64,000 nucleotides of DNA from Paeniglutamicibacter psychrophenolicus. Lineage in GTDB: Bacteria > Actinomycetota > Actinomycetes > Actinomycetales > Micrococcaceae. The notes under the pieces were generated by a model. That model had not been told where the DNA came from and made no database searches. It was given only the letters and a program-made list of their open reading frames with translations. This document shows, one piece after another, positions 23,945 through 27,170 of this stretch (within the stretch, counting starts at the first letter, position 1; every line of letters starts with the position of its first letter). The position numbers and the translations under genes are program-made. The stretch lies in the NCBI RefSeq assembly GCF_030812255.1, contig NZ_JAUSSH010000016.1, positions 1-64,000 of the forward strand, written 5' to 3'.

Positions 23945-24844
23945 CTACGCCAGCCGAAGGGGCCGGTCGCCGAGCCCGATGCTGATTTCCTGCCCCCACG
24001 AGGCGGTGAGGCGGTCCTGCTCCATGCCGTCGCCAAACACCACCAGCTGGTCCGAGGCCACGGCGAGGCGGAGTGGTTCGCCGGCCTCCAGCAAGCCGTC
24101 GGTCAGGGAAGTGCCGGTGGCGGGGGAGGGCCACGCCTCGCGGACAAACCATGCCAGGGCCGGGTCCGTCGGGGCCGGCAGCGTGCGTCCCCCGCGGTCC
24201 TGCGCGATGGAGGCGCACCACCCGGTGGCACCCGCTCCGGTGGAAACGATGAGGCCGGACGACGACTGCGACTCGCTCCGGCCGTCGGGCGTCGTAAGCC
24301 GGTAGCGGGCCGACTGGTGGGTCCGGTGGCCGATGAAAATCTCGTTGAGCCCCGACAATTCCTGACCGTCGTCGAGCCTTGCCCTCACCATGGACAGTTC
24401 CCGGCAAGGTAACGGTAGCTGGCTTCCACTGCCCGGGGCGAGGCCCAGCAGCAGCCGTGCGGCATCCGCGGAGGTGTGCCGGACCAGCACACCCGGATTC
24501 GTTCCCGGTTCCGAGTCGATCCCGATGACGGGCTGGCCTGCGAGGTACTTGGCCGCATTGGCCACGAGCCCGTCCTGGCCCACGACGGCGACGATGTCCT
24601 CGGGCGTGAACAGGAACCTGTTCAGGTCTTCCCGTTCGACCTCGGCGCGGCGCCATTCGGGCGGGACCGCGGCGCGGATGGCTGCCAGGGCCGCGCCGAG
24701 CCGCTCGTGGCGCTCCTGGACGGCGGCAAGGGTTCGACCGCGGGTGCGCAGGAAGAATTCGGCCTGGCCGAGGGTGGCGTGCCGGTCCAGCAATTCGTCC
24801 AGCTCGGTGCGCCGGTGGACGATAACGAGGCGGGGTGTTGCCAT
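23945..24844 (-). CDS. NAD kinase-fold protein
   Basis: 299 residues from the ATG at 24844, ending well before the NmrA-like gene. It carries the ATP-NAD kinase/diacylglycerol kinase fold. EDIVAVVGQDGLVANAAKYL holds the position of the GGDG motif (GQDG, 89-92), NEIFIGH (167-173) gives the conserved NE pair, and STGAGATGW (201-209) the conserved TGSTAY-like loop. The change GGDG to GQDG could alter substrate or activity. It lies eight bases downstream of the SPFH gene in the same operon and next to an NrtR-like regulator, suggesting an NAD- or NADP-related role. It is not the housekeeping NAD kinase by sequence; that assignment is inference. Confidence 0.75.
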   Translation of the reverse strand: MATPRLVIVHRRTELDELLDRHATLGQAEFFLRTRGRTLAAVQERHERLGAALAAIRAAVPPEWRRAEVEREDLNRFLFTPEDIVAVVGQDGLVANAAKYLAGQPVIGIDSEPGTNPGVLVRHTSADAARLLLGLAPGSGSQLPLPCRELSMVRARLDDGQELSGLNEIFIGHRTHQSARYRLTTPDGRSESQSSSGLIVSTGAGATGWCASIAQDRGGRTLPAPTDPALAWFVREAWPSPATGTSLTDGLLEAGEPLRLAVASDQLVVFGDGMEQDRLTASWGQEISIGLGDRPLRLA

Positions 24845-24852
24845 GGCCGGGC

Positions 24853-25872
24853 CTACTTTCCGCCGGCGGCTGCGGTGCCCGGTTCCCGGAACAACCCGGC
24901 CAGGGCCCCGCTGAGCAAATCCGGGGTGACGGTCAGGTTGCCGATGTTCGGCAGCGATCCGGCTGCCTCGCGGAATGCCACTGCCAACAGGGTGGCCTGG
25001 TCCATGCCCCGGTAGACCTCCATGGCGGCGGCTTCCCGGATTGCGTCCGCCTCGCCGACCAGGCGGATCCGGTTGGCCTCGGCGGTGGCGCCGATGCCCC
25101 GGCGTTCGGCTTCGGCATTGGCCTGGATGAGGCCGGCTGCTGCTTGTTCCTCGGCCTCGCGCCTGGCATTGGCCCCCTCCTGGGCCACGAGGTGTTCGCG
25201 CCGGGAGGCCAGCTCGATCTTGCTGGCCATCTCGTTCTCGGAGATCGTCCGCTCGCGTTCGACCGCGACCGCCCGGCGTTCGTAAACGGCCCGGTCGGCC
25301 TCGGCCTGCAGTTGTTCGCGGACCGGTGTCTGCAGGGCCCGCTCGACCTCTGACTCCGGACGGACGGCGAGGACCTGCACGCCGAGGATCTCGATGCCGG
25401 TGGACGCCAGCCGGGCGTCCGTGCCGAGGGCCTCGGCGAGCAGCTGGCGCAGCTCGCTGACCCCGCGTTCCAGCGACTGGGCGAGTGTGGTGGTGGCGAT
25501 GTGGTCGATCGCGTGGCTTTGGCAGAGCTGGCCGATGATGGTGGCCACCTGCTCCTTGCCGCCGGACGCTGCCGGGCCGCCCTGCTGGAGGCCGAAGTCG
25601 AGCCGGCTGGCCACCGACACCGGGTCCACAAAGCGGTAGGTGACGTTGGCCTGGATGCTGACGTCCTGGTGGTCGCGGGTGATGGCGTGGAAGAGCGTGG
25701 GCAGTTCCTGGTCGTCGACGGGAACCTCGCTCAGCACGGATGCCGCCGGCCGGAACCAAAACGCCTGGCCCACACCCCGGTGCCTGACGGCACCCTTTTG
25801 CAGGTGGACGACGTAACCGGTGGGGCTGCCCAGGAAGTGGCTGATCCAGGGGTAGTTCTTGATGGTGGCCAT
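24853..25872 (-). CDS. SPFH/Band 7 domain protein
   Basis: 339 residues from the ATG at 25872 with GAGGAG upstream. The Band 7 domain spans about residues 10-190 (YVVHLQKGAVRHRGVGQAFW, VSIQANVTYRFVDPVSVASR, LASTGIEILGVQVLAVRPESEV). A long charged coiled coil follows (about 190-285; AEADRAVYERRAVAVERERT and AEEQAAAGLIQANAEAERRG), then a short C-terminal tail. No N-terminal membrane helix is visible, unlike stomatins and flotillins, so it may be a cytoplasmic or peripherally attached oligomer. It shares an operon with the NAD-kinase-fold gene and is divergent from the NrtR-like gene. Confidence 0.85.
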   Translation of the reverse strand: MATIKNYPWISHFLGSPTGYVVHLQKGAVRHRGVGQAFWFRPAASVLSEVPVDDQELPTLFHAITRDHQDVSIQANVTYRFVDPVSVASRLDFGLQQGGPAASGGKEQVATIIGQLCQSHAIDHIATTTLAQSLERGVSELRQLLAEALGTDARLASTGIEILGVQVLAVRPESEVERALQTPVREQLQAEADRAVYERRAVAVERERTISENEMASKIELASRREHLVAQEGANARREAEEQAAAGLIQANAEAERRGIGATAEANRIRLVGEADAIREAAAMEVYRGMDQATLLAVAFREAAGSLPNIGNLTVTPDLLSGALAGLFREPGTAAAGGK

Positions 25873-25899
25873 GATGGGGTCGCTCCTCAACCTTTGCAA

Positions 25900-25967
25900 C
25901 TTATCGTCTGTTTGACGATAAGAAAAGCATAGGGAGCTTTCGGGTTTATTTTCAAGGTGACGATAAG
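25900..25967. promoter_or_regulatory. Paired operators and divergent promoters of the Nudix/SPFH locus
   Basis: Operator 1: CTTATCGTC (25900-25908), spacer TGTTT, GACGATAAG (25914-25922), a perfect 9-5-9 inverted repeat. Operator 2: a degenerate copy with the same spacing, TTTATTTTC (25945-25953), five bases, GACGATAAG (25959-25967). For the minus-strand SPFH gene a promoter can be drawn as TTGAAA at 25955-25950 and TATGCT at 25931-25926, 18 bases apart; operator 1 then covers the start point and operator 2 the -35. The Nudix gene has TATGAT at 25972-25977, just downstream of operator 2. One regulator bound here would control both directions; the NrtR-like product is the obvious candidate. 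Confidence 0.75.
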
Positions 25968-25983
25968 TATTTATGATGGGTGC

Positions 25984-26718
25984 ATGGCCGAATTCCCTCC
26001 CGCGCTCCAGCGCTTCCCGGTGACGGTGGACATCGTCGCCCTCACCGTCCGCGACAATGCCCTGAACGTCCTGCTCATCACGCGCCTCATCGAGCCGTTC
26101 CGCGGCCGGCTCGCGCTGCCGGGAGGATTCGTACTGGCCGGAGAGGACTTGGGGGAGGCCGCAATCCGCGAACTGGCGGAGGAAACCGGGGTCGAGCAGG
26201 TGCCGGGGCACCTGGAACAGCTGCAGAGCTATGGGCCGCAGGGGCGCGACCCGCGAGGGGATGTGCTCACCGTGGCCCACCTGCTGCTTGCGCCCGACTT
26301 TCCCGTCTTGTCTGCCGGGAGCGACGCCGAGCAGGCTGCCTGGTGCCCGGTCGGCGACATCCTGGCAGGGGAAAGGCATCTGGCGTTCGACCACGCCCGC
26401 ATCCTGGTCGACGCCGTGGAGCGGGCAAGATCAAAACTCGAGTACTCGCCGCTGGGGGCGGCTTTTTGCGGGGAGGAATTCACCATCGCGCAGCTGAGAG
26501 CCGTATATGAAGCGGTGTGGGGCACCCGCCTGGATCCCCGGAACTTCCACCGCAAGGCCACGGGAAACCCCGGTTTCCTTGAGGACACGGGGCGGATGAC
26601 CACGGGCGACGCCGGTCGCCCAGCGGCGCTCTTCCGGCTCGCGGCCGAGGCTCGTTCCGCGGCGGGCGAGCCGGTTCGGGCGGTGCTCAATCCACCGCTG
26701 ATGCGGCCGCATTCCTGA
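25984..26718 (+). CDS. NrtR-like transcription regulator with Nudix domain
   Basis: 244 residues. The N-terminal domain (about 1-150) is a Nudix fold with a complete Nudix box at 48-70: GFVLAGEDLGEAAIRELAEE followed by TGV. The C-terminal domain (about 155-225) has the winged-helix pattern of NrtR/AraQ-type regulators: FTIAQLRAVYEAVWGTRLDP, then NFHRKATGNPGFLEDTGR. NrtR proteins sense ADP-ribose or related NAD metabolites and repress NAD-synthesis genes. The TATGAT box six bases before the ATG predicts a leaderless mRNA. Unlike many NrtR proteins it keeps an intact box, so it may be both enzyme and regulator. A related alternative is a sugar-responsive (AraQ-type) regulator. Confidence 0.85.
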   Translation: MAEFPPALQRFPVTVDIVALTVRDNALNVLLITRLIEPFRGRLALPGGFVLAGEDLGEAAIRELAEETGVEQVPGHLEQLQSYGPQGRDPRGDVLTVAHLLLAPDFPVLSAGSDAEQAAWCPVGDILAGERHLAFDHARILVDAVERARSKLEYSPLGAAFCGEEFTIAQLRAVYEAVWGTRLDPRNFHRKATGNPGFLEDTGRMTTGDAGRPAALFRLAAEARSAAGEPVRAVLNPPLMRPHS

Positions 26719-27079: not shown

Positions 27080-27170
27080 TGGCGGAGACGGAGGGATTTG
27101 AACCCTCGGTACGGGGTTACCGTACACAACATTTCGAGTGTTGCACCTTCGGCCGCTCGGACACGTCTCC
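27080..27170 (-). tRNA. tRNA-Ser, anticodon CGA
   Basis: A 91-nt minus-strand gene including an encoded CCA. The acceptor stem GGAGACG pairs with CGTCTCC, the anticodon loop is CTCGAAA (anticodon CGA, reading UCG), there is a long class II variable arm, and the T arm contains GGTTCAAATCC. It has a dedicated terminator. Confidence 0.95.

Follow-up and report, generated by a model that had tools for sequence, protein, structure and literature searches.

The 64,000-nucleotide stretch of Paeniglutamicibacter psychrophenolicus DNA analysed here (the window) carries, at 23945-26718, three genes that we call N, S and R. R encodes a Nudix regulator of the NrtR superfamily, and it faces the genes for an SPFH/Band 7 protein (S) and for a protein with an NAD-kinase fold (N). 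The presence of all three genes was confirmed. Two copies of a palindromic operator lie between R and S, both in the window and in every related R-S gap that was compared. The best explanation of the whole would be an S-N operon that is controlled by R and responds to the breakdown of NAD, and we lean towards it with moderate confidence. An original prediction, made from the DNA letters of this locus, had proposed that the three genes form one compact, jointly controlled unit. The unit proved real, with shared operators, and the opposing regulator is NrtR-like with an intact Nudix box as claimed.

Layout of the locus and its operators

The features of the locus, in window coordinates, are as follows.
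23945..24844, minus strand: N, NAD-kinase-fold protein; 299 aa, ATG at 24844, signature GQDGLVAN.
24853..25872, minus strand: S, predicted soluble SPFH/Band 7 protein; 339 aa, ATG at 25872; SPFH domain followed by a helix of ~115 residues.
25901..25921, no strand: operator 1, TTATCGTCTGTTTGACGATAA; perfect arms; directly downstream of the predicted -10 element of S.
25926..25955, minus strand: predicted S-N promoter, TTGAAA-18-TATGCT, from its consensus match alone.
25946..25966, no strand: operator 2, TTATTTTCAAGGTGACGATAA; 2 mismatches; covers the predicted -35 element of each divergent promoter.
25949..25977, plus strand: predicted R promoter, TTTTCA-17-TATGAT, from its consensus match alone.
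25984..26718, plus strand: R, Nudix and NrtR-type winged-helix regulator; 244 aa, intact Nudix box.

Because S and N lie on the same strand only 8 bp apart, they fit a single operon. R is divergent from them. The start codons of S and R are separated by 111 bp, and this gap carries both operators and both predicted promoters; the two promoter matches found there compare with 0.2 expected in shuffled sequences. The R mRNA may be leaderless, since the start codon is located 7 nt past the predicted -10 element.

The operator consensus, TTATCGTCA-N3-TGACGATAA, is present in two copies in 55 of 55 R-S gaps. These comprise the window and 54 related loci; a further locus (L037), with R ~0.8 kb off, was excluded from the count and also has two copies. 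In shuffled intergenic DNA, sites of at least 12/18 appeared in a mean of 1.05 of the 55 loci and a maximum of 5 (200 shuffles). Among the 110 sites, C8 and A15 never vary, and 109 retain G14 and C16. The two copies are 34 bp apart in 35 loci, 33 bp in 4, 36 bp in 1, 44-45 bp in 12, 42 bp in 2 and 51 bp in 1. The 44-45 bp class consists of the window, ten other Micrococcaceae loci and L033, which is described below. The two main spacing classes differ by about one helical turn, as if two dimers needed the same relative face of the DNA. Phasing at 10.5 bp gave a resultant of 0.90 over the 55 loci and just 0.53 over the seven distinct spacings. This reading is only suggestive, because related genomes share spacings.

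In the whole genome of P. psychrophenolicus, the two S-R operators are the sole sites within 2 mismatches, and three further sites with 3 mismatches equal the yield of a reversed control pattern. A scan of 14 further genomes, allowing up to 3 mismatches, placed the local pair as the two best sites in 11; in one other (G066), one site of the pair ties with a distant site. From these sequence matches R looks to act locally in most of the 14 genomes, with exceptions that are taken up below. Two points sharpen the joint control first proposed: the close sites are confined to this locus, and in several genera R is not beside S and an R-family gene is encoded elsewhere.

Co-occurrence in actinobacteria

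The association of the three genes was examined in 296 genomes of the class, with thresholds of E<=1e-40 for N, E<=1e-40 for S and E<=1e-55 for the R family. N and S occur in an identical set of 51 genomes and are neighbours in all of them, with a median of 38 nt and a maximum of 311 nt between the matched segments. R-family genes were found in 103 genomes, namely 49 of the 51 with N and 54 of the 245 without it (Fisher p 1.8e-24, relatedness ignored). Recurrence as a set, which the original prediction expected, therefore holds in full for S and N and largely for R. R adjoins S in 29 of the 51 genomes, P. psychrophenolicus included (coordinates compared by eye). Among the matches listed, no R lies near S in 16 genomes, all of genus g47, nor in G508, G578, G595 and G599, which do have R matches. 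Shared ancestry inflates both the co-occurrence and the operator statistics, and some genomes are fragmented.

From named genomes, 80 loci were fetched, the best 80 of at least 567 and found partly via the peptide GQDGLVAN. S and N are neighbours in all 80, and R is present in 55, including L037.

Presence within the genus is patchy. Of 14 other genomes, five have a full N, one (G004) has a broken N, and eight gave no match. The broken copy belongs to a sister species (L022, 5070-5722), where S and R are unrecognisable within the fetched 12.5 kb. In the window, a tRNA-Ser (cga) gene is located at 27080-27170, ~360 bp downstream of R, and given this patchiness it could mark an integration site. 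Actinobacterial-type S-N-R loci also appear in two records named as other phyla, Sporosarcina beigongshangi REN13 (L033) and an Acidobacteria metagenome-assembled genome (L097). In the tree, the R of L033 is nested within Micrococcaceae, and this locus probably reflects recent transfer or contamination.

S-N loci without a local R

Loci in which S and N are separated from R provide a further view of the regulatory link. There are 25 such loci; L052 lacks DNA upstream of S, leaving 24 that can be scored. The operator is at its usual place in 19 of the 24, in 16 of them as a pair 33-34 bp apart. A single match far upstream in L089 was not counted as an operator. A search for R in 18 of the 25 genomes gave an R-family gene at E<=1e-69 in all 13 that have a normally placed operator. 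Four loci with no normally placed operator (L084, L089, L090, L101) come from genomes whose R matches reach ~1e-35 at best and have no Nudix box. Eight regions around such distant R genes, of the Streptomyces/Streptacidiphilus and Plantactinospora types, were fetched at length. All eight have an operator at the R gene, and the two from Plantactinospora have an operator pair. Because operators persist at S where R is encoded elsewhere, R is the predicted cognate regulator of S-N, and this link outliving the separation of the genes is the strongest evidence for it.

R is a member of the NrtR superfamily distinct from the NAD-biosynthesis regulator

R has an N-terminal Nudix domain and a C-terminal winged helix of the NrtR type, the domain order of the NrtR superfamily. 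Both domains match Pfam above the cut-offs (NUDIX PF00293, 62.7 bits; NrtR_WHD PF21906, 58.8 bits), and residues 5-223 of 244 match the structure 3gz5. At the sequence level, R also has the palindromic operator in a divergent promoter region that is expected of the superfamily. Its Nudix box is intact (pattern G-x5-E-x7-REUxEExGU), as in 54 of 55 R proteins of related loci. In NAD-type NrtR and in AraR this box is impaired (PMC4666351; this article and PMC6800001, PMC2807442 and PMC8553519 are cited from excerpts). MsNrtR of M. smegmatis, whose box is mutated, is reported to be inactive, and its operator is GTTTTCGA-N7-TCGAAAAC (PMC6800001).

R does not qualify as NrtR in the narrow sense. Against the curated equivalog NF050029 (NrtR), it scores 112.9 bits, under the 400-bit cut-off. 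This model is strict, as the Providencia relative of Shewanella NrtR reaches just 267 bits, and the nadA-linked NrtR of the P. psychrophenolicus genome 108.9 bits. Operators within 2 mismatches are absent from the NAD-biosynthesis genes of this genome. The nadA-linked protein is a second NrtR-type regulator with a degenerate Nudix box, and its gene heads nadA, nadC and a cysteine-desulfurase-like gene, the match of the latter being under the curated cut-offs. The gene between nadA and nadC is a putative nadB. A comparable nrtR-nadA-nadC-sufS set is found in C. glutamicum (PMC2807442). In the tree, five classical proteins, this one and those of four genomes that lack R, are separated from all other rows (100/100). 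R as the housekeeping regulator of NAD biosynthesis was rejected, since the classical NrtR sits elsewhere with nadA and nadC and the close operators are confined to S-R. The description of R as NrtR-like thus stands for the superfamily but not in the sense of an orthologue of the NAD-biosynthesis NrtR.

Other relatives of R are found in other surroundings. Some are near an adenylosuccinate-synthetase-like gene, and others are beside phosphorylase-superfamily genes. In Streptomyces (L194-L197), a second R-like branch has a related TTATAGTCA/TGACTATAA-type site within 2 kb. In L197 this site precedes a gene, possibly NadR-like, whose cytidylyltransferase-like match is sub-threshold; the R-like gene comes after it. 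R paralogues adjoin a 570-590 aa protein without Pfam match in Actinoplanes regularis (L115, 2082-5459) and in L184 (2840-5417). They adjoin a phosphorylase-superfamily (PNP_UDP_1) gene in L115 and L186 (4840-6466), and L115 has two operator-type sites 43 bp apart upstream. These paralogue loci (L115, L184, L186) look like a second R-controlled system.

The S-N pair on plasmids and in other phyla

A whole-protein search detected N at 35-52% identity on plasmids of alpha-, beta- and gammaproteobacteria and of a spirochaete (20 of 57 matches listed). The divergent NUDIX-SPFH-N order can be read from the annotation of Rhizobium etli p42f, Providencia alcalifaciens, Methylomonas and Moraxella osloensis. 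Compared with the window proteins, N is 35-37% identical there, S 29-34% and R 35-40%. The same triplet was found by tblastn in an unannotated record, Cupriavidus p1. In Treponema, S and N are neighbours and an R-like gene lies ~4 kb away on the same strand. Roseomonas plasmid p546-3 has S and N, with no R match on the record. With the Providencia locus as the DNA query, no match was obtained in E. coli.

The match between the Providencia R and Shewanella NrtR (3gz5/3gz6) spans the full length of the former (E 1.7e-108), and the Nudix box of the Providencia R is degenerate. Shewanella NrtR responds to ADP-ribose (PMC4666351). The gammaproteobacterial R-S gaps contain a different inverted repeat, TAGTGTC-N5-GACACTA-like. 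The best copies have 2 mismatches in Providencia, 3 in Methylomonas and 1 in Moraxella, and equally good ones arose in 0, 3 and 0 of 500 shuffles, figures that are optimistic in that the motif was picked after viewing the sequences. The Rhizobium gap has no convincing match to this operator, 28 of 500 shuffles being equally good. By their sequences, the putative repressors found opposite the S-N pair come from different branches of NrtR. For this reason an NAD-derived signal is favoured, and the argument is stronger than any single motif.

On some resistance plasmids, the uncharacterised protein beside tetR(H)-tet(H) is the NADK-like N. In Moraxella osloensis pNP7-1 (L206, 2115-6862), N is beside tetR(H)-tet(H) together with R and S. 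Two further records (L207/L208) hold fragments: pHHV216 has N with a partial S next to a transposase, and Psychrobacter pKLH80 has a partial N match.

S is a predicted soluble SPFH protein

S matches Pfam Band_7 (PF01145) with 58.4 bits at a cut-off of 23.6. It has no transmembrane-like stretch: the top 19-residue Kyte-Doolittle mean is 1.16, and 1.6 is reached by none of the 44 aligned sequences. Hydropathy and the map of helices and strands also place no hydrophobic anchor at the N-terminus, where the membrane-bound SPFH classes have one. S is thus predicted to be soluble, in agreement with the earlier claim that it lacks a membrane anchor.

The model of S has a pLDDT of 83.8 and a pTM of just 0.51. 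It consists of strands and an SPFH domain to about residue 172, a helix at 174-288 and a poorly predicted tail. Fold searches returned erlin, prohibitin, HflK/C and stomatin as the best matches (Z 11 to 14) and major vault protein at Z 11 to 13. Unrelated ribosomal proteins scored Z 10-11 on residues 53-173, so the SPFH fold matches are barely higher, and the family assignment rests on the Pfam match as well as on the fold. From the model, S may form a large ring or dome oligomer. Two soluble SPFH subfamilies, SPFH8 and SPFH9, have been described, and smaller subfamilies are without a conserved operon partner (PMC2636767).

N has an NAD-kinase fold with GQDG in place of GGDG

No Pfam family matches N at E<=1, NAD kinase PF01513 included, and matches to the NCBIfam NAD kinase models are far under the cut-offs. 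The best PDB match by sequence is human NADK2. The model of N (pLDDT 93.7) has the full NAD-kinase fold and aligns with human NADK2 (7r4l) at Z 24.5 and an rmsd of 3.0 over 278 residues with 22% identity.

Mutagenesis has identified residues that are vital in M. tuberculosis Ppnk (PMC8553519). By a motif alignment made by eye, these correspond to D91, N167, E168, T207 and W209 of N, with Tyr replaced by Trp at 209. Over a 44-row alignment they are conserved in 44, 44, 42, 44 and 44 rows, respectively. The short NE/D motif and the region II residues of NAD kinases are therefore kept (N167, E168, T207, and Trp as in NADK2), and the Asp that opens region II is Ser, again as in NADK2.

The GGDG of NAD kinases is GQDG, rarely GPDG, in the N sequences examined. 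Its conservation was judged on 19 sequences found by whole-protein or profile search, together with the plasmid matches, which sidesteps the bias of loci found with the GQDGLVAN peptide. GQDG is present in 17 of the 19, P. psychrophenolicus included, and GPDG in the other two, one of them (L130) a weak partial match. All seven N proteins examined from non-actinobacterial plasmid records have GQDG. In the 44-row alignment the Q is kept in 43 rows, a figure biased by the peptide-based finding of loci. GQDG is a near-fixed family signature. A one-off mutation or a mark of a pseudogene was rejected on this account: the change of GGDG that had been pointed out in the window is real, and it is what the family normally has, rather than something peculiar to this copy. 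GQDG-type NAD-kinase relatives are annotated as 'sugar kinase' or 'hypothetical protein'.

We take the GQDG loop to sit on the phosphate-donor side. Because the key residues are kept while GGDG has become GQDG, the NAD side of N would be intact and the donor side changed. What N does can be read in two ways. The first, which is quite possible if short of probable, makes N a pseudokinase: it would bind NAD(P)/ADP-ribose as a sensor or clamp and in this way control the assembly of S. The near-fixed GQDG in the presumed donor loop and the kept NAD-side residues are consistent with this function. However, the Asp proposed as the catalytic base (PMC8553519) is kept in all 44 rows and is not obviously needed by a pure binder. 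The second, which we regard as rather doubtful, is that N is an active, inducible NADK2-type NAD(H) kinase. The operon would then increase NADP(H) during oxidative or NAD stress, with S serving only to position the enzyme. The fold is retained, as are four of the five key residues, the fifth being Trp as in NADK2. Human NADK2 (C5orf33) works with ATP or polyphosphate, and NAD kinases differ in the residue that follows GGDG (PMC8553519). Against an active kinase, the family members examined have Gln, rarely Pro, at the position of the second Gly of GGDG, and N lacks a Pfam NAD_kinase match at E<=1.

A proposed response to NAD breakdown and its alternatives

We propose that R, as a locally acting repressor of the NrtR superfamily, would hold down its own gene and the S-N operon via the two spaced operators. 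The operators are supported by their conservation; from this we infer binding and repression by R. An NAD-derived nucleotide, most likely ADP-ribose, would release R. ADP-ribose is suggested as the inducer because of the family and because a close relative of Shewanella NrtR lies opposite the same operon in Providencia. Derepression would yield S, which may assemble into a ring or dome as its fold suggests, and N, an NADK2-type protein by its model that would bind NAD(H). N would either phosphorylate NAD(H) with an altered donor site or act as a non-catalytic NAD(P)-binding subunit. S and N may be in contact in an NAD-binding SPFH/NADK-like complex. The actinobacterial R, with its complete Nudix active site, may hydrolyse the inducer, which would make the switch self-resetting. 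Overall, the locus would serve to respond to the breakdown of NAD and would be distinct from the nadA/nadC circuit for NAD biosynthesis in this genome. The NAD-metabolite signal and the stress role that were first suggested for the set are retained here as inference.

A bolder version, in which we place little confidence, makes S a closed cytosolic shell, built like a vault or an HflK/C dome, that encloses or caps N. ADP-ribose would then lead to an NAD-handling compartment, a bacterial counterpart of vault-PARP4, and NrtR-type repressors of different branches would have been recruited to the same shell-cargo pair across phyla.

Several observations weigh against the proposed response to NAD breakdown. 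R-family genes occur in 54 of the 245 genomes without N, so R has other targets. G283 and G475 have N-S and no R match at 1e-55, and L053 has an R-family gene in the genome and no operator at S. In Actinomadura, the best R match of G374 is without a Nudix box, and that of G375 adjoins an unrelated gene (588 aa), the fetched region containing no operator. The operator scan also gave exceptions. Actinoplanes regularis (G062) has 1-mismatch sites at two other places, compared with 2 mismatches in each site of the S-N pair, and one of these better distant sites is at a nucleoside-phosphorylase operon with an R paralogue. In Frankia (G068), a distant site is as good as the best local one. As to N, having Q for G in GGDG could make it inactive as a kinase. 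The cell does not require N to make NADP, since the genome has another Pfam NAD_kinase match above the cut-off (C13:125199-125396, 59.9 bits).

A further Pfam NAD_kinase match above the cut-off was observed at G000:C11:5630-5758 (30.6 bits).

AraR of Bacteroides, a member of the same superfamily as R, binds arabinose, so the superfamily can sense pentoses instead (PMC4666351). R might likewise sense a sugar or another non-NAD metabolite, the link with NAD being accidental, and it scores 31.1 bits against Pfam AraR_C (cut-off 23.8). We think this unlikely: the NrtR_WHD score is higher, the proteobacterial counterparts are close to the ADP-ribose-responsive NrtR, and N has an NAD-kinase fold.

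It is similarly improbable that R, S and N form an anti-phage or conflict system that loss of NAD sets off and in which S-N serves as the effector or protector. The patchy presence in the genus, the occurrence on plasmids and the R-like regulators that adjoin phosphorylase-superfamily genes would suit such a role, but N gave no match in 50,697 phage records, and the gene pair and its operators are very stable. Most defence genes lack such stable gene pairs and operators. A known defence system was rejected, as R, S and N have no convincing PADLOC match (the best one has E 0.00095 and concerns the helical part of S).

Significance and novelty

Loss of NAD to toxins, ADP-ribosylation or phage defence is something that a cell needs to detect. 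The locus is a compact, widespread set that combines a predicted sensor of NAD breakdown and defined operators with a predicted soluble SPFH protein and a relative of NAD kinases whose catalytic loop is changed. Its three small, soluble proteins make two questions testable, namely the role of soluble SPFH proteins and catalysis by GQDG-type NAD-kinase relatives. The operator is a ready reporter for the signal.

A search of open-licence papers gave no description of the R-S-N set; subscription papers, RegPrecise and SEED were beyond reach, so prior mention is possible. A paper on conflict systems (eLife 2020, PMC7159879) mentions Nudix a single time in the text and names SPFH and Band-7 in the reference list alone. 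Each part belongs to a known superfamily. What appears to be new is the NrtR-type circuit with an SPFH/NADK-like target operon.

Comparison with known systems

The closest regulatory parallels are the NrtR proteins of Shewanella (3gz5/3gz6), M. smegmatis (MsNrtR, PMC6800001) and C. glutamicum (PMC2807442). Like R, they combine a Nudix domain with a winged helix, use a palindromic operator and lie opposite their target operon. R differs from them in its intact Nudix box, its other operator and its S-N neighbours, which stand in place of nad genes. It also lies outside the five classical nad-type NrtR sequences in the tree, with a support of 100/100. AraR of Bacteroides shares the superfamily with R, which matches Pfam AraR_C, whereas the Nudix box of AraR is impaired and the protein controls arabinose genes (PMC4666351).

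For the operon products, S resembles erlin, prohibitin, HflK/C, stomatin and major vault protein in its SPFH fold followed by a long helix. Unlike these SPFH proteins, it has no N-terminal membrane segment, and its partner is N. Human mitochondrial NADK2 (C5orf33) is the best match of N in both sequence and fold, and SSGL and the region II Trp are common to the two. NADK2 has GGDGT where N has GQDGL, and identity over the aligned fold is 22%.

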